Positions 38,640 to 63,791 of a DNA stretch of 64,000 nt are shown here, in pieces (position 1 is the stretch's first letter; each line of letters begins with the position of its first letter). Both the position numbers and the translations under genes were made by a program. This DNA is from Rhodococcus globerulus NBRC 14531 (GTDB taxonomy: Bacteria > Actinomycetota > Actinomycetes > Mycobacteriales > Mycobacteriaceae): NCBI RefSeq assembly GCF_001894805.1, contig NZ_BCWX01000001.1, forward strand, positions 1,364,001 to 1,428,000, in the 5' to 3' direction. The notes beneath the pieces were generated by a model, which was not told the DNA's origin, did not search any database, and saw only the letters and a list, made by a program, of their open reading frames with translations.

Positions 38640-38713
38640 CGCGGGGTGGAGCAGCTCGGTAGCTCGCTGGGCTCATAACCCAGAGGTCGCAGGTTCAAAT
38701 CCTGTCCCCGCTA
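38640..38713 (+). tRNA. Initiator tRNA-fMet (CAU)
   Basis: A cloverleaf of 74 bases. The anticodon loop CTCATAA gives CAU. The anticodon stem ends in three consecutive G:C pairs, and the first acceptor position is C facing U, unpaired; both are initiator hallmarks. The T-loop TTCAAAT is normal. CCA is not encoded. Confidence 0.95.
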
Positions 38714-38789: not shown

Positions 38790-39434
38790 TCAGCAGCGCG
38801 TCGTACGGACGAGTAGTCCGGCGACGTGAGCGCTCGCGGCGGCGCGGGCAGCAACAGCGTCACCGGTCTCGATGGCCGAGACGATCCGGGCATGCTCGGC
38901 CACGGCGAGCCGCCGGTTCAGATCCGAACCCCACATGTCCGTCCGAAACAGATGCGATTGACCATCCAGGCGGTGCAGAGCGTCACGGAGTGGGTCGTTG
39001 GCCGCTGTTTCCCGAATCAGATTGTGGAACTCGAGGTCCAACGCGGAATCGCGACGCCGATCCGGTGCGGTGTTCAACAATTCACGTTGTTCCTCGACCA
39101 TCTTGTTCAGTTGGGAGACGACGTCGTGAGTGGCGCGGGTTGTAGCGCTGAAAGCCGCAAGGCCGTCCAGGACCTCCCGGACCTCGAACACCGCGCGCAG
39201 TGAGTCCGCATCGAGCGATTCGACCTTCGCACCGGCGTTGCGGGTGTGTACCGCGATGCCTTCGTAGATCAATTGCTGAACGGCCTCGCGAACCGGCGTT
39301 CTACTGACATTCAACTTGGATGCGAGTGCGGGGACACTGAGCGGCGTGCCTGGGGCGAGTTCGCCGGAGAAGATGAGCTCTCGCAGAGTCTCGTGTACCG
39401 ACTCGGTCAGCGGTGCACGTTCGGTTGTGGTCAT
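38790..39434 (-). CDS. GntR family regulator, FadR/FCD subfamily
   Basis: 214 residues from ATG 39434 (the frame stays open to 39542 without support). The winged helix L-R-E-L-I-F-S-G-E-L-A-P-G-T-P-L and R-T-P-V-R-E-A-V-Q-Q-L is at residues 12-70. A helical FCD domain follows, with histidines (L-E-F-H-N-L-I near 133; V-A-E-H-A-R-I-V near 178) suited to metal-carboxylate effectors. It is last of four minus-strand genes with the oxygenase and ABC genes, so it probably regulates the catabolic cluster. Confidence 0.9.
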   Translation of the reverse strand: MTTTERAPLTESVHETLRELIFSGELAPGTPLSVPALASKLNVSRTPVREAVQQLIYEGIAVHTRNAGAKVESLDADSLRAVFEVREVLDGLAAFSATTRATHDVVSQLNKMVEEQRELLNTAPDRRRDSALDLEFHNLIRETAANDPLRDALHRLDGQSHLFRTDMWGSDLNRRLAVAEHARIVSAIETGDAVAARAAASAHVAGLLVRTTRC

Positions 39435-39483
39435 GATTTCTTCTTCGTCATGGATTTCGTGGTCCCCTTGCACAGTGCTGACA

Positions 39484-40545
39484 TTACCCGGCCGCGCGTA
39501 CTCGTTCGGCTTCTCGCAAGTCCCCACCCGGGGCAATCCCACCTTTCAATCCTGCGACCTTGGCCGCGATGTTCTCGGCAATCGTGATCGGCGGATACCC
39601 GACCTCGCCGGGCTGCAGTGTTCCCGGTAGCGCCTCGATGACGGCGTCGTAGTTTCCGTCGAAAAAGAATGCGGCAGAACGCCGTCTGATGATCCGACCG
39701 TCGACGATCGGCGGATCGACGCGGTGAATCGTGGACCGCCAGCGGTCGTTGGTCCAGCGAGCCATCGCGTCGCCGAGATTGATCAGCAGGGCGTTGTCCG
39801 CTGGTTGGGCGTCATGCCAGAGATTGTCGGCGCCCAGGATCTGAAGGCCGGGCACCTGATCTGCCCAGAGGATGGTCAGAATCCCGAAGTCGGTGTGAGC
39901 GCCCATACCGGTCATTTCCCCGGGCATCGCGATCTCGCTTTCGGGGAGCGCGTAATTGTTCATTTTCAACGCATTGATCGAGTGGTCGAGCATGGAGTCG
40001 AAATATCCTTGCTCCAATCCCAGCGCATCGGTGAACGCGCGCATCAGGATTGCAGCCAAAGTCTGTGCGTGGGAGAAGTATTGCTCGACAGCAGGCCTGA
40101 ATCCAGGTGCCGCATCCGGCCAGGTGTTGGCGGCGTAACTGAATTCGGGGAGGTCGAGGTCCGGGTAGTCGGCGGCCTCGGTTCCGACGACGACGGCTTC
40201 GTAGAAATCGTTCATCATATTCGCGGACGCGACACCCAGGCTCATGCTCAACGACTCCGACTTCGGCGGAGAGTATCCACGGTTCTCGGACGACGAGCGG
40301 GCGTACGTCTTCTTCACGTCCAGGGGCAGGGCGAAGAACTCGTCCAGCGCGCCGGCCAGTCCGTCGATCGATTCGCGTGGAATTCCATGTCCCACAATCT
40401 GAATGAAGCCGACTTCGCGGCAAGCCCGGTCCAGGTCGGTAGCGACGGCAGCGCAGGCAGCGTCGTAGCGCTCGGCCGGCGAGTTCATGACGTATGGGCT
40501 CATGACGTAGGGGCTGATGTCGATGGTGGGAATCTCGAAGCTCAT
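39484..40545 (-). CDS. Isopenicillin-N-synthase-like Fe(II)/2-oxoglutarate oxygenase (first of two)
   Basis: 353 residues from ATG 40545. The DIOX_N region has G-F-I-Q-I-V-G-H-G-I-P near residue 46. The 2OG-Fe(II) core has facial triad H217-x-D219 (G-A-H-T-D-F-G) and H274 (S-T-I-H-R-V), with R289 of R-R-S as the oxoglutarate-binding arginine. Such enzymes hydroxylate or oxidise small metabolites, for example thymine 7-hydroxylase. Residues 11-20 contain a tandem S-P-Y-V-M duplication. It is adjacent to the ABC permease; the substrate is unknown. Confidence 0.9.
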   Translation of the reverse strand: MSFEIPTIDISPYVMSPYVMNSPAERYDAACAAVATDLDRACREVGFIQIVGHGIPRESIDGLAGALDEFFALPLDVKKTYARSSSENRGYSPPKSESLSMSLGVASANMMNDFYEAVVVGTEAADYPDLDLPEFSYAANTWPDAAPGFRPAVEQYFSHAQTLAAILMRAFTDALGLEQGYFDSMLDHSINALKMNNYALPESEIAMPGEMTGMGAHTDFGILTILWADQVPGLQILGADNLWHDAQPADNALLINLGDAMARWTNDRWRSTIHRVDPPIVDGRIIRRRSAAFFFDGNYDAVIEALPGTLQPGEVGYPPITIAENIAAKVAGLKGGIAPGGDLREAERVRAAG

Positions 40546-40581
40546 GTCAGTAGGTCCTTGTTTCGATGGGGAGTAGGTCGA

Positions 40582-41445
40582 TCAGCGGCCGGACGTGTGC
40601 CACTTACCGACCAGAATGCGGGAGAGGTATCCGAAAGCGGAGAAGACCAGGACACCGAACAGTGAAGCAATGACGATCGCGCCGATCAGATCCTCGGACT
40701 GAAGTCGGCTGCGGTAGACGTCGAGAAGGGTGCCGATGCCGGGTTGTCCTTTTGCGAAGAACATGTCGCCGATAATGGCACCGACCACAACAAGTCCGGA
40801 CGCGGTGCGGATGCCGGTGAGAATGGCAGGCATCGCCGCTCGCAGTTCGAGCTTTACCAGCCGATCCCAGCGCGATGCGCGTCCGAGGGTGAAGAGTTCA
40901 TGCAGTCCCCGGTCCACGGACTGCAAACCGAAGTGGGTGTTGGTGATGATGGGGAACGCCGCGATCAGTACACACACCAAGGTGCGGGCAGTCATGCCGT
41001 AGCCGAACCACAGGCCGATCAACGGGACTATCGCGAGAATGGGAATGACCTGAAGCACAACGGCATACGGGTAGACGATCCGCTCGATCCACTTGGCCTG
41101 ACTCATCAGTACACCCGTTCCGACGCCGATTGCAACGGCGACGACAAATCCCACCGCCGCGACCTGCGCGGTGACGGCCAGCGCTTCGAGCATCGGACCG
41201 AGGTGTTTCCAGTCGAGTAGCGACTGGGTGAGCACCCGACTTGGGGGCGGCAGCATGAACTGGCGTTCGGGTGAGAGGACCAGGTTGCTCACTATCGACC
41301 AGAGCGCGAGAGCGCCGGCCAACGAGAGAAGGGGAAACGCGATCATGCTCCCGATCCTCTTCAGGCGTTGCTTCCAGAGCTGCGTGGGTAGGGAAGTTGC
41401 TGTGGTGCTTACTACTTCGCGGCGAAGTGTCAGTGCTTCGGTCAT
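40582..41445 (-). CDS. ABC transporter permease, NitT/TauT type
   Basis: 287 residues from ATG 41445, overlapping the ATPase stop by 4 bases. About six membrane helices. The EAA loop T-L-G-R-A-S-R-W-D-R-L-V-K-L-E-L near residue 190 and a conserved M-S-Q-A-K-W-I-E-R before it place it with SsuC/TauC/NrtB-type permeases, which import sulfonates, nitrate or pyrimidine-like compounds. It works with the ATPase at 41442 and the lipoprotein at 42484. Confidence 0.9.
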   Translation of the reverse strand: MTEALTLRREVVSTTATSLPTQLWKQRLKRIGSMIAFPLLSLAGALALWSIVSNLVLSPERQFMLPPPSRVLTQSLLDWKHLGPMLEALAVTAQVAAVGFVVAVAIGVGTGVLMSQAKWIERIVYPYAVVLQVIPILAIVPLIGLWFGYGMTARTLVCVLIAAFPIITNTHFGLQSVDRGLHELFTLGRASRWDRLVKLELRAAMPAILTGIRTASGLVVVGAIIGDMFFAKGQPGIGTLLDVYRSRLQSEDLIGAIVIASLFGVLVFSAFGYLSRILVGKWHTSGR

Positions 41446-42224
41446 CGGAGGCTCCCGTGCAGACTGGCCGAAATTTCGGCGACGTATTCGGTGAAACGGG
41501 CGTCGTACCGCAGTTCCGGGCTGCGTGGGTAACCGAAGCCGATGTCGACGACAGAATGGATGCGACCAGGTCGCGCGGTCATGATGACAACCTTGTTGGC
41601 GAGATACACCGCCTCGGACACCGAATGCGTGATGAACATAGCGGTGAATCCCTTGTCCGCGTATAGCCGTTGAAGTTCGACCTGCATGTCGAGGCGCGTC
41701 ATTTCGTCGAGAGCACCGAACGGCTCGTCCAGGAGCATGACCTCCGGAGCCAAGGTCAGAGCCCGCGCGAGAGACACTCGCATCTTCATGCCGCCGGACA
41801 GTGCATTGGGCAATTGCCCCGAGAAGTCTCGTAGACCGACAGCGTTGATGGCTTCGCCGGCGCGTTCACGACGGAGGGCTTTGGACACGCCGCCCAACTC
41901 GGCTGACAACTCGACATTGGATTGTACTGTTCGCCAAGGTAACAGCGTCGGCTCCTGGAAGATGAAGCCTACCGATTCGGTGTCGAGGGCAACGGATCCG
42001 CTGGTAGGACGCTCGAGGCCGGCTGCCATGCGCAATAGTGTCGACTTGCCGCAGCCGGACGGGCCGACCACGGCCACGAAGTCGCCACGGCGCACATCGA
42101 GATTGATGCCGTCCAGTGCCACCGTGCCGGTGTCGAATTTCTTCACTACATCGGTGAAGGCCATCTGCATGGACGTGGTCAGTCTGCGTGCGTCGGTGTC
42201 CTGCATCGTGTTTGCGAGTTTCAT
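41442..42224 (-). CDS. ABC transporter ATP-binding protein, NitT/TauT type
   Basis: 260 residues from ATG 42224, with GGAGG 5 bases upstream; the frame continues to 42254. Walker A G-P-S-G-C-G-K-S-T near residue 53, Q-loop F-Q-E-P-T-L-L-P-W-R near 87, signature L-S-G-G-M-K-M-R near 140 (methionine in place of the common glutamine), Walker B V-M-L-L-D-E-P near 163. It energises the permease encoded immediately downstream. Confidence 0.93.
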   Translation of the reverse strand: MKLANTMQDTDARRLTTSMQMAFTDVVKKFDTGTVALDGINLDVRRGDFVAVVGPSGCGKSTLLRMAAGLERPTSGSVALDTESVGFIFQEPTLLPWRTVQSNVELSAELGGVSKALRRERAGEAINAVGLRDFSGQLPNALSGGMKMRVSLARALTLAPEVMLLDEPFGALDEMTRLDMQVELQRLYADKGFTAMFITHSVSEAVYLANKVVIMTARPGRIHSVVDIGFGYPRSPELRYDARFTEYVAEISASLHGSLR

Positions 42225-42483
42225 CCGTGCCTCCGGATCGTGTGATGCATGCAAAATATCTGCGTTCTGATGGGATTGAGTGTGGATTGCATGTATGTCG
42301 GGCGGATTTCTCAGTGTTAATTGATTGTGACATTGCAGGTGAATCGGTTATCTCGAATGATTAACCTGCGAGAAACAAAGCGGCATCTGCATGTAATCGA
42401 AGTGCTACAGACTCTGCTCATCCCCAATCTGCATGCCAGTCAGAGTCACTGCAGTCAGAGTCCCTTCATTTCGAGGAGAACCC
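42225..42483. promoter_or_regulatory. Divergent regulatory region of the catabolic cluster
   Basis: 259 bases between the ABC operon (minus) and the binding-protein operon (plus). It holds an 11-base direct repeat CAGTCAGAGTC at 42437-42447 and 42452-42462. There is also an inverted GGTTA/TAACC pair (42346-42350 and 42362-42366) and several TGCATG-containing segments. These are candidate operators for the GntR regulator. No promoter hexamers stand out. Confidence 0.45.
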
Positions 42484-43659
42484 GTGAATTCCAAACGCAC
42501 AACCGTGGGAACCGCCAGTATTGCCCTCGCATTGCTCGCTGCATTCGGGTTGAGTGCATGCAGTTCGAGTGACGCCGACACGGCGGTTGCGTCGGAAGCG
42601 CTCGAGCCCGCTGCGGATGCGCAGACACTAGCCGGCGTGTGTCCGGAAAACGTTGTAGTGCAGCTGCAATGGCAGCCGCAGTCGGATATGGGTGCGCTGT
42701 TCGAGATGCTCGGGCCGGGATACACCGTCGACACAGACGACAAGTCGGTCAGTGGCACTCTGGTCGCGGGCGGCAAGGATACCGGCGTCGATCTCACGCT
42801 TCGGGCAGGTGGCCCGGCGATCGGGTTCCAGTCCGTCAGTTCTCAGATGTACGTGGATGATTCGATCACGCTGGGTCTGATCCATGGTGACCAGGTGATC
42901 GCCGCGTCGGCGAGTCAGCCCGTCATGGCGGTGACTCCACTACTCAAGTACAGTCCGGCAATCGTGATGTGGGACCCTGCGTCGCACCCTGATTGGAAGA
43001 GTGTTGCCGACATCGGCAAGACCGATGCAAGCGTCGTGGTGTCCAAGGAACAGTTGTTCCCGCAGTGGCTGGTTGCGAAGGGGTTGTTGAAGCAGTCTCA
43101 GCTCGACACGAGTTACGACGGCGCACCGTCGCGCTTCGTCGGCGACCCGACCATTGCGCAGCAGGGATTCGCGAATTCCGAACCGTACACGTACGAGAAC
43201 GAGACGCCGGCCTGGGACAAGCCGGTTTCCTTTGACCTGCTGAAGGATTCAGGCTTCGACATCTATGCGTCCAATGTGTCGGTCCGCGCTGACAAAGTAG
43301 AATCGCTCTCGTCCTGCCTGACCAAATTGGTTCCGATCATCCAGCAAGCGAGTGCCGACTACATCACCGATCCGGCTGCGGCCAACAGCGCGATCGTCGA
43401 CGTTGTCTCCCAGGATATTTCGTTCAGTCCCTACACCGAGGGCGAGGCTGCCTTCAGTGCTCAGATGTTGAAAGACGAAGGGCTGATTGCAAACGAGGCT
43501 GACGGTTCGGTAGGAACCTATGACATGGCCAGAGTCACCCGAAACGTCGCTGACCTGACGCCCGATCTGGTGGCCGGCGGTGCAGCGATTCCGGATTCAC
43601 TGACCGCAGAACAGATCTACACCAACAAGTTCACCAACCCGTCCATCGGAATCCGCTGA
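42484..43659 (+). CDS. ABC transporter substrate-binding lipoprotein
   Basis: 391 residues from GTG 42484, with AGGAG at 42474-42478. A lipoprotein signal peptide ends in the lipobox L-S-A-C at residue 26. The mature protein is a periplasmic-binding-protein type II fold of the NMT1/TauA kind, with Q-L-Q-W-Q-P-Q-S near residue 60 in the ligand-binding region. It is transcribed opposite its cognate permease and ATPase. The ligand is unidentified; the surrounding amidohydrolase and oxygenases suggest an organic nitrogen compound. Confidence 0.85.
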   Translation: MNSKRTTVGTASIALALLAAFGLSACSSSDADTAVASEALEPAADAQTLAGVCPENVVVQLQWQPQSDMGALFEMLGPGYTVDTDDKSVSGTLVAGGKDTGVDLTLRAGGPAIGFQSVSSQMYVDDSITLGLIHGDQVIAASASQPVMAVTPLLKYSPAIVMWDPASHPDWKSVADIGKTDASVVVSKEQLFPQWLVAKGLLKQSQLDTSYDGAPSRFVGDPTIAQQGFANSEPYTYENETPAWDKPVSFDLLKDSGFDIYASNVSVRADKVESLSSCLTKLVPIIQQASADYITDPAAANSAIVDVVSQDISFSPYTEGEAAFSAQMLKDEGLIANEADGSVGTYDMARVTRNVADLTPDLVAGGAAIPDSLTAEQIYTNKFTNPSIGIR

Positions 43660-43678
43660 TCAGGAGACTGGAAAAATC

Positions 43679-44656
43679 ATGACGTACGAGATGACCGAAC
43701 TCAACCGTGAGAGCCGTATGGGCGGCCTCGGTACCGAAACAACCGATCGCGAAGTGCGACGGATCGATCTGTCCGACTTCGAGAACCGCCGCAGCGAGAT
43801 AGCGGACGAGTTATGGTCGGCTGCAACCGATATCGGATTCTTTCAGGTTGTCAACCACGGAATCGACATCGGTGAGGTTCGCAAGGCGTTCGCTGCCACG
43901 GAGAACTTCTTTGCGCTACCAGATGAGGTCAAGGCCCGGTATCCACTCAAGAAGGGATTCAATTCCGGCTGGGAGAGCATGTCGCAAGTGCGGCCGTCGA
44001 TCGGGACGCCCGATCAGAAGGAGTCCTACCAGGTAACCCGCCCCCACATGGGTGACCTGTGGCCCACCGACGACGAACTCGAGGGCTTCCGCGAAACGAT
44101 TCTCGATTTCGAGGCACGGTGCTGGGGCGTCGCGATGGCCCTGCTCTCGTGTTTCGCAGACAAACTCGGATTCGAGCGGGACTTCTTTGCGAAAGCCCAC
44201 GATCCGTCGGTGACCAGTTACCAGAGCACCCTCCGGTTGCTGCACTACTTCCCGCTCGCTCCCGATGCCGATGTCGCAGGAATGTGGCGCGCGGGCGCGC
44301 ACACCGATTTCGACTGCCTGACCTTGCTCTTTCAGCGCGACGGTCAGGGCGGGCTGCAGTTGTGCCCTGGTAAGGAGATGGAGGCCCAGGAATGGACGTC
44401 GGTGGAACCCGCCGAGGAAGCGATCACCTGCAACATCGGTGACATGCTGATGCGATGGAGCGACGATGTGCTGCCGTCGAACTTTCATCGCGTCAAGAGC
44501 CCAGGCCTGAACGACTACCGGGGCCCTCGATACAGCCTGGCTTTCTTCGCGCAGGCAAACCGCGACATCATGATCGAAGGTCCGGCCGGGAAGTATCCGC
44601 CGATCACCGCCGAGGATTATCTCTACCAGCGCGTGAATGCCAATTTCGCCCGCTGA
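43679..44656 (+). CDS. Isopenicillin-N-synthase-like Fe(II)/2-oxoglutarate oxygenase (second)
   Basis: 325 residues from ATG 43679, with AGGAG at 43662-43666. G-F-F-Q-V-V-N-H-G-I near residue 53, iron ligands H208-x-D210 (G-A-H-T-D-F-D) and H270 (N-F-H-R-V), and oxoglutarate arginine R284 in R-Y-S-L-A-F-F. It is clearly diverged from the first oxygenase in the window, so the two probably act on different intermediates. It follows the binding protein by 19 bases and precedes the amidohydrolase. Confidence 0.9.
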   Translation: MTYEMTELNRESRMGGLGTETTDREVRRIDLSDFENRRSEIADELWSAATDIGFFQVVNHGIDIGEVRKAFAATENFFALPDEVKARYPLKKGFNSGWESMSQVRPSIGTPDQKESYQVTRPHMGDLWPTDDELEGFRETILDFEARCWGVAMALLSCFADKLGFERDFFAKAHDPSVTSYQSTLRLLHYFPLAPDADVAGMWRAGAHTDFDCLTLLFQRDGQGGLQLCPGKEMEAQEWTSVEPAEEAITCNIGDMLMRWSDDVLPSNFHRVKSPGLNDYRGPRYSLAFFAQANRDIMIEGPAGKYPPITAEDYLYQRVNANFAR

Positions 44657-44694
44657 GCCGACCGAAGATGCCGACCGAAGACACGGAGAAAACG

Positions 44695-46026
44695 ATGAAT
44701 ACCGCACCCGCCAGCATCACCATCACCGACGTCACCGTCTACAGCGGCAGGCAATGGCTCGAAGGTCGAGACGTCGTGGTGACGGACGGAATTGTCACCG
44801 CGATCGATGCGTCGCGCGGTACGTCGGCTCTCGGTGACCCGAAGGCCGGAAGTGTTGACGGATCCGGCGCTTACTTGATTCCCGGATTCGTCAACACGCA
44901 CACGCACATTCAGCAGTCGCTGATGCGGGGGATCGCGGAGGGAACTCCACTACTCGAATGGCTGCTTGCCGTTGCCGAGGAATCCGTGCTGATCACCCCG
45001 GAAAAGGCGTACACCGCAACAGTTGCGGCCAGCCTTGAGGCCTTGCGGAGCGGTACCACCACATTGGTGGAACACATGTGGCCGCACCCGTCGAGCGAGG
45101 TACACGACGCTGTCATCCGGGGATTGCACGACACCGGGATTCGCGCCCTGCTGGGGCGTGGGGTGGGGGATCGATCGGACCCGACGCGTAAGTGGGGCTT
45201 CGATCCGCGGCTTTTGCAGCCATTGGGCGACGTCCTCGATCACACCGATCAGATCATGCGAGACGTTGCCGGATCGCGCATCGATGCGGCTGTGGCAGTG
45301 CCGAATCCGAGATCGCTGACTCCGGAGGGAATGGCGCAGGTGCGTGAATTCGCTCAGGCGCGCGGACTGACCGTATCGATACACCTGCTCGAGACACAGA
45401 CCGACAATATGATGTGTACCGAACATACGGGGATGGGTGCGGTCGACTTTCTCGACGCGAACGATTTCCTGTGGGATCGAGTTCTCGCGGTTCACTGCGT
45501 CGAACTCGATGATCGTGGTCAGAAAGTGCTGGCAGAGAGAGGAGTTGGCGTCTCCTACAACCCGGTGAGCAACATGCGACTCGGTAGCGGGGTCGCACCG
45601 GTGCCGAGCTTCCTGGAAGCCGGCCTCGCAGTGGGGCTGGGGGTGGACGGCGCCGCCAGCAACGACACGCAGGACATGCTCGAGACCTTGCGTACCGGTG
45701 CCTACGTGCAGCGGGCCACCCGAGCGCGTGCGGACCTACTCGGTTTTGGTGCCATGATCGATATCGCCACCGGCGGCGCCAACAGTGCTCTCGGCTTGCC
45801 GCCGAGATCAGGCGGTGTGTCTGTCGGAGATGTTGCTGATCTCACCATGATTCGGTTCGAGCGAGACTTCGGATGCCTGCCGGTGCGCGACCCGGGTGCA
45901 TCCATTCTCACGACCGGCACCCGGCAGATCGTCGACACCGTTCTGGTTGCCGGCGAGGTTGTCATCCGGGACGGGCACTCGACGCGGGTGGACGAGGCTG
46001 AGCTGATCAGTGCACTGTCGGCCTAA
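44695..46026 (+). CDS. Amidohydrolase of the TRZ/ATZ (aminohydrolase) family
   Basis: 443 residues from ATG 44695, with GGAG at 44685-44688; ATG 44668 is an alternative. Metal ligands are H69-x-H71 (N-T-H-T-H-I-Q-Q), H230 (S-I-H-L-L-E), H267 (V-H-C-V-E-L) and D318 (G-V-D-G-A-A-S-N-D). This set is typical of zinc or iron deaminases and dechlorinases acting on purine, guanine-like or triazine rings. 8-oxoguanine deaminase and AtzB-like enzymes are the nearest kinds I recognise. Its stop overlaps the stop of the convergent acyl-CoA ligase. Confidence 0.87.
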   Translation: MNTAPASITITDVTVYSGRQWLEGRDVVVTDGIVTAIDASRGTSALGDPKAGSVDGSGAYLIPGFVNTHTHIQQSLMRGIAEGTPLLEWLLAVAEESVLITPEKAYTATVAASLEALRSGTTTLVEHMWPHPSSEVHDAVIRGLHDTGIRALLGRGVGDRSDPTRKWGFDPRLLQPLGDVLDHTDQIMRDVAGSRIDAAVAVPNPRSLTPEGMAQVREFAQARGLTVSIHLLETQTDNMMCTEHTGMGAVDFLDANDFLWDRVLAVHCVELDDRGQKVLAERGVGVSYNPVSNMRLGSGVAPVPSFLEAGLAVGLGVDGAASNDTQDMLETLRTGAYVQRATRARADLLGFGAMIDIATGGANSALGLPPRSGGVSVGDVADLTMIRFERDFGCLPVRDPGASILTTGTRQIVDTVLVAGEVVIRDGHSTRVDEAELISALSA

Positions 46027-63419: not shown

Positions 63420-63787
63420 GGGGCTGAACGGTTTCGACTGCGTGTGTTGAGTTAGGGGAAGCGTGTCGGTGCAGGCAAGAGACCACCGTAAGCGTCGCTG
63501 CAAACCTATAAGCGCCGATTCCAATCAGCGCGACTACGCTCTCGCTGCCTAAGTAGCGAAGCGTGTCTGTCAGCCCGGGGTTGCCCTCGACCCGGATCCT
63601 GGCATCAGCTAGAGGGCTTTACTGTTCGGCTCGGTCACGGAGTTGGATGGGACATCAAACAGTGACTGGGATCGTCATCCTGGCTTGTTCGCGAGACTGG
63701 GAGATCCAAGTAGAGACTTAGCGAACTGCACACGGAGAAGCCCTAGCGATTCAACGTAGGACCCGGGTTCAATTCCCGGCAGCTCCA
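63420..63787 (+). ncRNA. ssrA: tmRNA (transfer-messenger RNA)
   Basis: 368 bases. The 5' end GGGGCTG pairs with CAGCTCC (63780-63786), followed by discriminator A; CCA is not encoded. The T-arm GGTTCAATTCC is present near the 3' end. The resume codon GCC at 63514 opens the tag reading frame A-D-S-N-Q-R-D-Y-A-L-A-A, stopped by TAA at 63550-63552. This is the actinobacterial ALAA degron. Works with SmpB to rescue stalled ribosomes. Confidence 0.96.
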
Positions 63788-63791
63788 CAAA

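Follow-up and report, generated by a model that had tools for sequence, protein, structure and literature searches.

Which compound is taken up and broken down by a locus that combines an ABC importer with two different oxygenases and an amidohydrolase? The question is raised by seven genes in a 64,000 nt stretch of the genome of Rhodococcus globerulus NBRC 14531 (hereafter the window; accession number NZ_BCWX01000001.1), for which a sequence-only reading had proposed a split importer serving the catabolism of a nitrogenous ring compound. Profile searches against Pfam and NCBIfam found all seven ORFs in place and in the expected families, i.e. a GntR/FCD regulator (38790–39434), the oxygenase Ox1 (39484–40545), a NitT/TauT-type permease (40582–41445) and an ATPase (41442–42224, overlapping the permease gene by 4 bases) on the minus strand, facing a substrate-binding lipoprotein (SBP; 42484–43659), the oxygenase Ox2 (43679–44656) and the TRZ/ATZ-type amidohydrolase AHY (44695–46026) on the plus strand. 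The probable starts are GTG at 42484 for SBP, ATG at 44695 for AHY, ATG at 39434 for GntR and 42224 for the ATPase. A chance assembly of the seven genes was ruled out, as the core recurs in Rhodococcus, Williamsia and Gordonia.

The active-site motifs are intact across the enzymes encoded in the window. Both oxygenases carry the HxD...H triad and the oxoglutarate arginine claimed for them (H217-T-D219, H274 and R288-x-S290 in Ox1; H208-T-D210, H270 and R284-x-S286 in Ox2) and are indeed strongly different, sharing 29 % identity. With their DIOX_N and 2OG-FeII_Oxy domains they belong to the IPNS-like Fe(II)/2-oxoglutarate class; Pfam recognized these two domains only, and no Rieske domain. The best solved relative of Ox2, and the second-best of Ox1, is thymine 7-hydroxylase (PDB 5c3p), which oxidizes a nucleobase methyl group, although the matches are distant (E 1.3e-34 for Ox1 and 9e-30 for Ox2) and the substrate there is a pyrimidine. 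No published reaction for these oxygenases was found in the open-licence literature searched.

AHY (Pfam Amidohydro_1) shows the HxH, HxxE, H, D pattern of amidohydrolase-superfamily deaminases, i.e. H69-x-H71 (HTH), H230-x-x-E233 (HLLE), H267 and D318, all conserved without exception in the 21 sequences aligned, and is probably a deaminase, presumably of aminopurines. Among curated models it comes nearest to 8-oxoguanine deaminase (NF006055), where it scores 245.4 of 532 bits, followed by N-ethylammeline chlorohydrolase with 226 of 609 bits. Both scores are below cut-off and do not place it in the 8-oxoguanine deaminase family; nor does its score on NF009059 (199 of 543 bits) place it in PRK12393, the cut-off of which is passed by the partner amidohydrolases of Klebsiella, Paraburkholderia and Qingshengfaniella. 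AHY resembles 8-oxoguanine deaminase and PRK12393 in superfamily, metal ligands and genomic place beside Ox2 or uricase, but lies far under both cut-offs. The urate cluster of the host genome encodes a separate enzyme above the 8-oxoguanine deaminase cut-off (669 of 532 bits), to which AHY is 29 % identical.

The importer is of the NMT1/TauA type. Its permease (BPD_transp_1; nearest models SaoP and SsuC) and ATPase (ABC_tran, with Walker A, LSGG and LLDEP motifs; nearest models SsuB, TauB and NtrCD) come closest to SsuBC-type models, below their cut-offs. SBP has the lipobox (LSAC) expected of the binding lipoprotein of such an importer, while the family assignment found no direct match: no Pfam or NCBIfam model was hit at E 0.001 and no solved structure in the PDB by sequence or profile, and the NMT1 likeness is at profile level only (hhalign probability of 96 % with the NMT1-type SBP of a Klebsiella locus).

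The co-occurrence of the genes in relatives, a check proposed with the sequence-only reading, bore out their connection. In a sample of 46 genomes, comprising 38 that encode a close SBP, be it intact or broken, and eight of the same genus that do not, Ox2 was present in 37/38 versus 1/8 and AHY in 28/38 versus 0/8. Ox1 was found in 28 of the 33 fetched importer loci (SBP ≥51 %, ATPase >55 %); four of the other five lack the gene and one ends at a contig edge. While Ox1 mostly stays with the importer, Ox2 and AHY are sometimes located elsewhere, together or apart. The two oxygenases may thus differ in their substrate or in the position they attack. In all nine Williamsia genomes AHY is missing, and a CodA-like enzyme takes its place. 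The Ox2–AHY pair lies apart from the importer–Ox1 locus in seven of the eight Gordonia genomes; the stretches fetched around these separate pairs contain neither a purine marker nor the palindrome (see below), and TIGR03383 uricase was found in none of the eight.

The relatives of Ox2 point to a class of substrate. We examined the closest 80 of at least 592, a non-random set of 39 proteobacterial (mostly Burkholderiales) and 41 actinobacterial sequences. Ox2 is 68–73 % identical to the 39 proteobacterial sequences, and an alignment of ten sequences across phyla has 120 invariant columns; in the tree, the actinobacterial sequences are intermixed with the proteobacterial ones, at low support and with the position of the root uncertain. 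A xanthine/urate riboswitch precedes Ox2 in the same orientation, at a distance of less than 400 bp, at 33 of the 39 proteobacterial loci (one of the 39 has no upstream DNA), or at 28/34 when the five loci used to build the model are left out, versus 0/41 actinobacterial loci. Of the other strong matches, 23/24 are upstream of an SBP gene, ten of these 23 being SBP–Ox1-like pairs; all these counts exclude six model matches of at most 15.2 bits. A riboswitch in the window was considered and rejected (no RF03054 match at the gathering score; best match to our own model, 13.5 bits).

In Actinobacteria, a conserved palindrome, TRCATGYA, stands where Proteobacteria have the riboswitch. The window harbours three copies between the divergent ATPase and SBP genes, i.e. 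TGCATGCA at 42246–42253 and TGCATGTA at both 42288–42295 (top score in the window, 19.3) and 42388–42395. The palindrome was present in 42/42 divergent ATPase/SBP intergenic regions examined, near-duplicates counted, and also precedes relocated Ox2 genes. The GntR/FCD protein (Pfam GntR and FCD), whose gene keeps its place in relatives, is presumed to be a repressor that quite likely binds the palindrome as its operator. An attempt to define a host regulon by this operator was discarded as too unspecific (145 forward places versus 48 in the control for a 12-base pattern with two mismatches), and no palindrome site was seen at the Ox3/urate cluster of the host at the score used.

A link to urate catabolism is also given by gene neighbourhoods. 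In six same-genus genomes, an AHY orthologue lies directly 5' of genes for OHCU decarboxylase (OHCUD), uricase, an 8-oxoguanine-deaminase-type enzyme and a xanthine dehydrogenase (XDH)-like protein, all on one strand, and in all five same-genus genomes (among the 46) in which Ox2 is found away from SBP, it is inside that urate cluster. In Rhodococcus triatomae BKS 15-14 and Rhodococcus sp. RD6.2, SBP, Ox2, AHY, OHCUD, uricase, DUF6986 and PuuE are contiguous, i.e. the module continues into uricase and allantoinase, and one locus of Mycobacterium sp. URHD0025 unites importer, Ox1, Ox2, deaminase, uricase, OHCUD, NCS2 and XDH-like genes. Uricase, OHCUD and PuuE passed their curated cut-offs wherever tested, as did all six NCS2 proteins tested, four of them beside Ox2 and two beside related oxygenases, one of the latter in the host genome, on the xanthine-permease cut-off TIGR03173 (one barely). 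Overall, a purine marker was present at 28/80 Ox2 loci compared with 0/16 control 20-kb stretches of the host genome (13 at 125-kb steps on one contig, the step overlapping the window omitted, and three on two other contigs), and was absent within 10 kb at 52/80 loci, some of them on short contigs. In the host genome itself, the XDH-like enzyme, uricase and OHCU decarboxylase are about 121–127 kb from the module.

Together, the uricase, OHCU decarboxylase and allantoinase genes in the operon and the xanthine/urate sensing before the orthologues indicate the purine trunk, and the substrates are very probably purines, as far as gene context can tell. We therefore read the module, at a probability of roughly 0.78, as a GntR-controlled purine scavenging side-pathway that converges on xanthine/urate rather than serving triazines, thiamine or sulfonates, and as the actinobacterial counterpart of a riboswitch-controlled proteobacterial set. 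Counting against this reading are the lack of a riboswitch in the window, the low score of AHY on the 8-oxoguanine deaminase model and its absence from Williamsia, the arrangement in Gordonia, the Ox2 loci devoid of purine markers and the low scores of actinobacterial XDH-like proteins (see below). The earlier proposal of an imported N-heterocycle that is oxidized and deaminated is compatible with this and can be narrowed to purines, while its 'two steps' are no more than a possibility, Ox1 and Ox2/AHY being separable. Under the preferred reading, the lipoprotein and ABC importer would take up a purine-type base, the amidohydrolase would strip a ring amino group, and the two oxygenases would each oxidize a different site of the base, the favoured reaction being the loss of N-alkyl (e.g. 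N-methyl) groups, on which xanthine dehydrogenase cannot act; the resulting xanthine or urate would be finished by the XDH-like enzyme, uricase and OHCU decarboxylase.

The sequence-only reading could name no known pathway that has precisely this combination of genes, but the proteobacterial form has been described. Yu and Breaker (2020; PMC7373994) place an IPNS-like dioxygenase, an NMT1/TauA-type SBP and a PRK12393 amidohydrolase in the gene set of the xanthine riboswitch, and give the functions of its enzymes as 'not established' at that time. The Rhodococcus module shares with this Xanthine-I (NMT1-motif) set an orthologous Ox2 (59–73 % identity), an NMT1-type SBP with an ABC importer and an amidohydrolase partner, and an Ox1-like gene follows SBP in ten proteobacterial riboswitch loci. 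It differs in having GntR and TRCATGYA, with no riboswitch found, an SBP family of its own that no Pfam model recognizes, AHY where the other set has PRK12393, and Ox1 in the permease operon. It also differs from HpxDE of Klebsiella, since HpxD is a Rieske-type oxygenase while the module has IPNS-fold Fe(II)/2-oxoglutarate oxygenases. HpxDE, as mentioned in PMC7373994, is likewise an oxygenase route of purine oxidation besides XDH. For the Xanthine-II riboswitch, an ON switch of the guanine-riboswitch type, PMC9295807 names dioxygenase, allantoinase and xanthine dehydrogenase genes, here again, by gene description, under a xanthine sensor.

The presence of XDH bears on what the oxygenases may do to a purine. 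A molybdenum-free route in which Ox1 and Ox2 hydroxylate ring carbons, from hypoxanthine via xanthine to urate as in HpxDE, would suit two oxygenases to two ring positions, and Yu and Breaker suggest it for the riboswitch-associated dioxygenases (PMC7373994). Rhodococcus sp. RD6.2, which joins the module to uricase and has no MoCoBD_1 match (the only marker by which XDH was judged in actinobacterial carriers), hints at such a replacement, yet it is an exception among them: R. triatomae shares its gene order but encodes an XDH-like protein, recognized by marker match, at another place in the genome, and in the host genome the XDH-like protein clusters with uricase and OHCUD. Moreover, XdhB was above the curated cut-off in 31 of the 32 proteobacterial Ox2 carriers tested (32 of the 39 loci were taken), which argues against the module as an XDH replacement, at least as a general rule. 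The XDH activity of the actinobacterial XDH-like enzymes is less certain, since they fall below curated cut-offs (the protein tested, from one urate cluster, is under every one, at best 519 of 780 bits), a point in favour of ring hydroxylation; among seven loci with an XDH marker of at most 43 % identity, two were tested, of which one passes an XDH cut-off and the other fails (686 of 780 bits). On balance, we consider ring hydroxylation rather doubtful and lean, tentatively, towards N-dealkylation, because the proteobacterial carriers have kept XDH and because, according to PMC7373994, xanthine or urate is not recognized by the riboswitch once it carries one methyl group at N1, N3 or N7, which is what is expected of a sensor of the demethylation product. 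A visual check of the 28 unlabelled neighbour families with the widest distribution revealed no formaldehyde-handling gene, a further point against the preferred reading.

Readings with other substrates fare worse. Enzymes of these superfamilies also accept purine-like compounds, and such a substrate (a pterin, isoguanine, 8-oxoguanine or a deazapurine) would fit the nearest model of AHY, the separate 8-oxoguanine-deaminase-type enzyme of the urate cluster and the match of AHY to PDB 2paj, an isoxanthopterin deaminase, but the signs of the purine trunk make it improbable. The use of cytokinins or other N6-alkyladenines, with one oxygenase removing the N6 side chain and the amidohydrolase deaminating the base, would exemplify the N-dealkylation of an aminopurine, and in related sets of the host genome such oxygenases are accompanied by proteins of the adenosine deaminase family. 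However, no plant- or isoprenoid-specific gene was recognized among the neighbours inspected and partners of the guanine/8-oxoguanine deaminase kind favour 2-amino over 6-amino purines, so that we regard it as slightly more improbable still. Uptake and breakdown of a sulfonate, nitrate, a thiamine precursor, a pyrimidine or an s-triazine is suggested by the superfamily names of transporter and amidohydrolase alone. The triazine, pyrimidine and thiamine leads of the sequence-only reading gained no support, no gene of any such pathway was recognized among the recurrent neighbours, and the riboswitch is, according to PMC7373994, not modulated by thiamine- or histidine-related compounds; this explanation is very unlikely.

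The preferred reading extends the gene set of the xanthine riboswitch to Actinobacteria, where it is under a different regulator, and assembles three enzymes and one binding protein into one Rhodococcus system. It is tempting to speculate, although the odds are against it, that Ox1 and Ox2 are position-specific purine N-demethylases or N-dealkylases which, with a lineage-variable deaminase, form a widespread route from methylated guanines, adenines and xanthines to xanthine. If so, Proteobacteria would sense the product of this route through the xanthine-I riboswitch and Actinobacteria would use GntR to the same end, which would account both for the coexistence of the oxygenases with XDH and for the role of the dioxygenases behind the riboswitch. 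Should the modified-purine reading be true, the module would represent a general recycling route for methylated bases.

All seven genes named by the sequence-only reading were found in place at 38790..46026 of the window, arranged as two divergent halves. On the minus strand, the GntR regulator gene is separated by 49 bases from the gene for the first IPNS-like Fe(II)/2-oxoglutarate oxygenase (Ox1), followed after 36 bases by the permease gene, which overlaps the ATPase gene by 4 bases. An intergenic region of 259 bases then leads to the plus-strand genes for the substrate-binding lipoprotein (SBP), the second oxygenase (Ox2, after 19 bases) and a TRZ/ATZ-type amidohydrolase (AHY, after 38 bases). 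An acyl-CoA ligase gene comes next, overlapping AHY tail-to-tail, and beyond it lies an acyl-CoA-dehydrogenase-like gene (named by eye). The iron and 2-oxoglutarate motifs are complete in both oxygenases. The deaminase-type ligands of AHY are all present and do not vary across 21 of 21 aligned sequences. A tRNA gene, a possible insertion point, lies just outside the GntR end (38640-38713), and a tmRNA lies at 63420-63790.

In the study of Yu and Breaker (2020; PMC7373994), xanthine and urate were shown to be ligands of the NMT1-motif RNA, which switches genes off and precedes genes for, among others, IPNS-like dioxygenases, NMT1/TauA-type proteins and PRK12393 amidohydrolases, the enzyme functions of which are not established there. 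The corresponding Rfam model, RF03054, exceeded its gathering score in nine of 13 scanned loci (L177, L178, L180, L182, L193, L199, L201, L223 and L242) and was not found in the remaining four (L184, L186, L210 and L231). With a model of our own, built from 14 of the Rfam hits, 33 of 39 proteobacterial loci were found to carry the riboswitch less than 400 bp upstream of Ox2; when the five loci that contributed to the model are set aside, 28 of 34 do. The six lacking it were L210, L225, L229 (no upstream DNA), L231, L247 and L258. A further 24 strong matches lay away from Ox2, 23 of them preceding an SBP gene; in ten of these cases an Ox1-like gene comes after the SBP. Of another 12 named stretches, L177-L180 and L182 contained the riboswitch, and it was not found in L099, L176, L181 and L183-L186. 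It was absent upstream of Ox2 in all 41 actinobacterial loci, from all 32 actinobacterial stretches obtained by genome searches (best score 14.8 bits) and from the window. The module is accordingly the actinobacterial form of a gene set that is already known but biochemically unassigned.

Within the family, SBP was found in 54 of 251 genomes, in two groups: close relatives at 51 % identity or more, some of them broken, and others near 40 % that belong to a second operon type. That second type, with a CodA-like gene, an ABC importer, an FAD-linked oxidase and a creatininase-family protein (L075, L079, L081-L083, L085-L089, L099, L177 and L179), additionally carries RidA and PDR genes in Rahnella and Klebsiella and runs into 8-oxoguanine-deaminase-type and XDH-like genes in genus g4. 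Co-occurrence was assessed in 46 genomes, i.e. 38 with a close SBP and eight of the same genus without it. Ox2 was present in 37 of the former versus one of the latter, and AHY in 28 versus none. The ten close-SBP genomes lacking AHY comprise the nine of genus g11, five of them matching Williamsia contigs and all nine with a CodA-like amidohydrolase adjoining GntR (L050-L058), and G111, which also lacks Ox2. Decaying copies were seen as well: SBP, Ox1 or the permease look broken in two large-genome relatives (L070 in G245; L095 in G195), and single in-frame stops interrupt Ox2 in G049 and SBP in G090. The record Kitasatospora arboriphila NRRL B-24581 (L204, genome G106), grouped with Williamsia, has a module and neighbours of Williamsia type and is probably mislabelled. 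On the putative viral or mobile contig IMGVR_UViG_2663763389_000017 (L176, 3953-5390), an amidohydrolase tail and then an Ox2 orthologue (58 % identity) make up the contig end, adjoined by a resolvase-like gene (amidohydrolase and resolvase-like gene named by eye).

Ox2 and AHY change genomic place among relatives. In five same-genus genomes (L142-L146), which by contig match include R. tibetensis, R. wratislaviensis and R. jostii, Ox2 clusters with uricase and an XDH (xanthine dehydrogenase)-like protein. In six (L143-L146, L158 and L159, the first four in stretches ending at AHY, with the preceding genes outside view), AHY directly precedes genes for OHCU decarboxylase, uricase, an 8-oxoguanine-deaminase-type protein and an XDH-like protein. 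The SBP-Ox2-AHY operon of R. triatomae BKS 15-14 and of Rhodococcus sp. RD6.2 runs on into OHCU decarboxylase, uricase (above the TIGR03383 cut-off), a DUF6986 protein and the allantoinase PuuE (above TIGR03212). The DUF6986 protein between uricase and allantoinase in L047 and L048 (Pfam, 480 bits) weakly matches HpcH/HpaI aldolases. Mycobacterium sp. URHD0025 (L211) has CodA, GntR, Ox1, permease, ATPase, SBP, Ox2, the deaminase, uricase, OHCU decarboxylase, an NCS2 nucleobase permease and XDH-like genes as neighbours, and in genus g4 a 40 %-identical importer stands in a row with the deaminase and XDH-like genes (L075, L079 and L081-L083). These linkages are several separate arrangements; the five Ox2 and six AHY cases in Rhodococcus may each reflect one inherited event.

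A genome-collection scan with an Ox2 alignment returned at least 592 relatives. Among the closest 80 loci, an importer (SBP or NCS2) lay within 10 kb of Ox2 in 63, a marker-set amidohydrolase in 57, a purine-catabolism marker in 28 (17 actinobacterial, 11 proteobacterial) and a uricase or XDH-like marker in 14, while seven had no marker except Ox2 itself. In seven of those 14 the XDH marker was at most 43 % identical; of two checked, L242 exceeded an XDH cut-off and L223 fell below. As a control, the same markers were sought in 16 further 20-kb stretches taken from the own genome, and no purine or importer marker appeared in any of them; around four other IPNS-like oxygenases the counts were one and zero, respectively, although two of these stretches hold NCS1 permeases and deaminases outside the marker set's coverage. 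Members of a cluster with a cytidine-deaminase-fold representative (PF00383) lay within 2.5 kb of Ox2 in 16 of the 80 loci. Ox2 is thus accompanied by deaminases from several families with distant or no relationship to each other, which suggests that its substrate bears an amino group. NCS2 permeases stand on both sides of AHY-Ox2 in Streptomyces L235, L252 and L255, and on one side in L259 (Streptomyces) and L265 (Kitasatospora). All six NCS2 proteins tested (L142, L181, L186, two in L252 and one of the own genome) scored above the cut-off for xanthine permeases, one of them only just (414.3 of 414.15).

A palindrome with the core TRCATGYA recurs in the intergenic regions between the divergent ATPase and SBP genes. 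After removal of near-duplicates, the octamer TACATGCA or its complement occurred in 28 of 29 regions (highest count in 50 mononucleotide shuffles, six), and with duplicates included each of 42 regions held two to four copies. The window has three intergenic copies (42246, 42288 and 42388) and a fourth, likely stray, inside SBP (42555). The same palindromes precede the relocated Ox2 in L143-L146 and the NCS2-Ox2-GntR operon of R. tibetensis (L142); this links the relocated Ox2 to a regulator of the same kind. At the score applied, no such palindrome stood upstream of the relocated Ox2-AHY pairs (L147-L154), of AHY in L158 and L159 or of AHY-Ox2 in Streptomyces L235 and L252, and the own urate cluster had none either.

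Could the module substitute for XDH? XdhB exceeded its cut-off in 31 of 32 tested proteobacterial carriers, and XDH-like proteins are encoded elsewhere in the R. triatomae genome and in the own genome; Rhodococcus sp. RD6.2 (G108) gave no MoCoBD_1 match. For Proteobacteria the case against substitution is strong; for Actinobacteria it loses force, because the XDH-like protein there misses curated cut-offs (in L143 XDH models are nearest, at 519 of 780). As the enzyme set nearly always coexists with XDH, it probably handles purines beyond XDH's reach. Judged from enzyme relatives and riboswitch specificity, N-alkylated purines appear to be the best candidates, since IPNS-like oxygenases include thymine 7-hydroxylase, the nearest solved relative of Ox2 and second-nearest of Ox1, and forms of xanthine or urate monomethylated at N1, N3 or N7 are not ligands of the riboswitch (PMC7373994, section 6). 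No formaldehyde-handling gene was recognised in the 28 commonest unlabelled families of neighbours, judged by eye.

The sequence-only reading, i.e. import, oxidation and deamination of a nitrogenous ring compound by a set for which it knew of no described pathway, was right in kind but wrong on the last point, such a gene set being described in PMC7373994. Checking names against curated models altered labels and left the odds of a purine unaltered. The own-genome 8-oxoguanine-deaminase-type protein passed (669 bits; cut-off 532), as did OHCU decarboxylase (207; cut-off 124). The assignment draws on uricase, OHCU decarboxylase, PuuE, the permeases and the riboswitch, all of which stood up to the check, and the predicted substrate class is, with good confidence, purine.

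The own genome harbours three more sets of nucleobase permease and IPNS-like oxygenase, two of them with deaminases. One, which lies near the urate cluster (L140, contig C1, 1267.6-1270.2 kb), pairs NCS2 with Ox3, an oxygenase that shares 57 % identity with Ox1. Another comprises XRE/cupin, NCS1, two oxygenases and an adenosine-deaminase-family protein (L269, C3, 460.6-465.8 kb); beside it (L269, 4812-5897) is an FAD monooxygenase weakly matching the urate hydroxylase HpxO model (157 of 500 bits). The third, beside urease accessory genes (L270, C3, 365.8-372.4 kb), comprises guanine deaminase (above the PRK09228 cut-off), an oxygenase, NCS1, a second oxygenase and an adenosine-deaminase-family protein. 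Acinetobacter plasmids (A. ursingii L186 and related) carry three IPNS-like oxygenases, accompanied on L186 by a Tsx-like channel, a xanthine-type NCS2 permease and a Rieske protein, with no riboswitch found there. A Rhodococcus qingshengii plasmid (L185, 5877-10146) bears an XRE regulator, an NCS2 permease and two oxygenases (69 % identical to Ox3; 33 % to Ox1), and is a plasmid version of the own-genome Ox3 set. The three own-genome sets are probably sister pathways for other purines.
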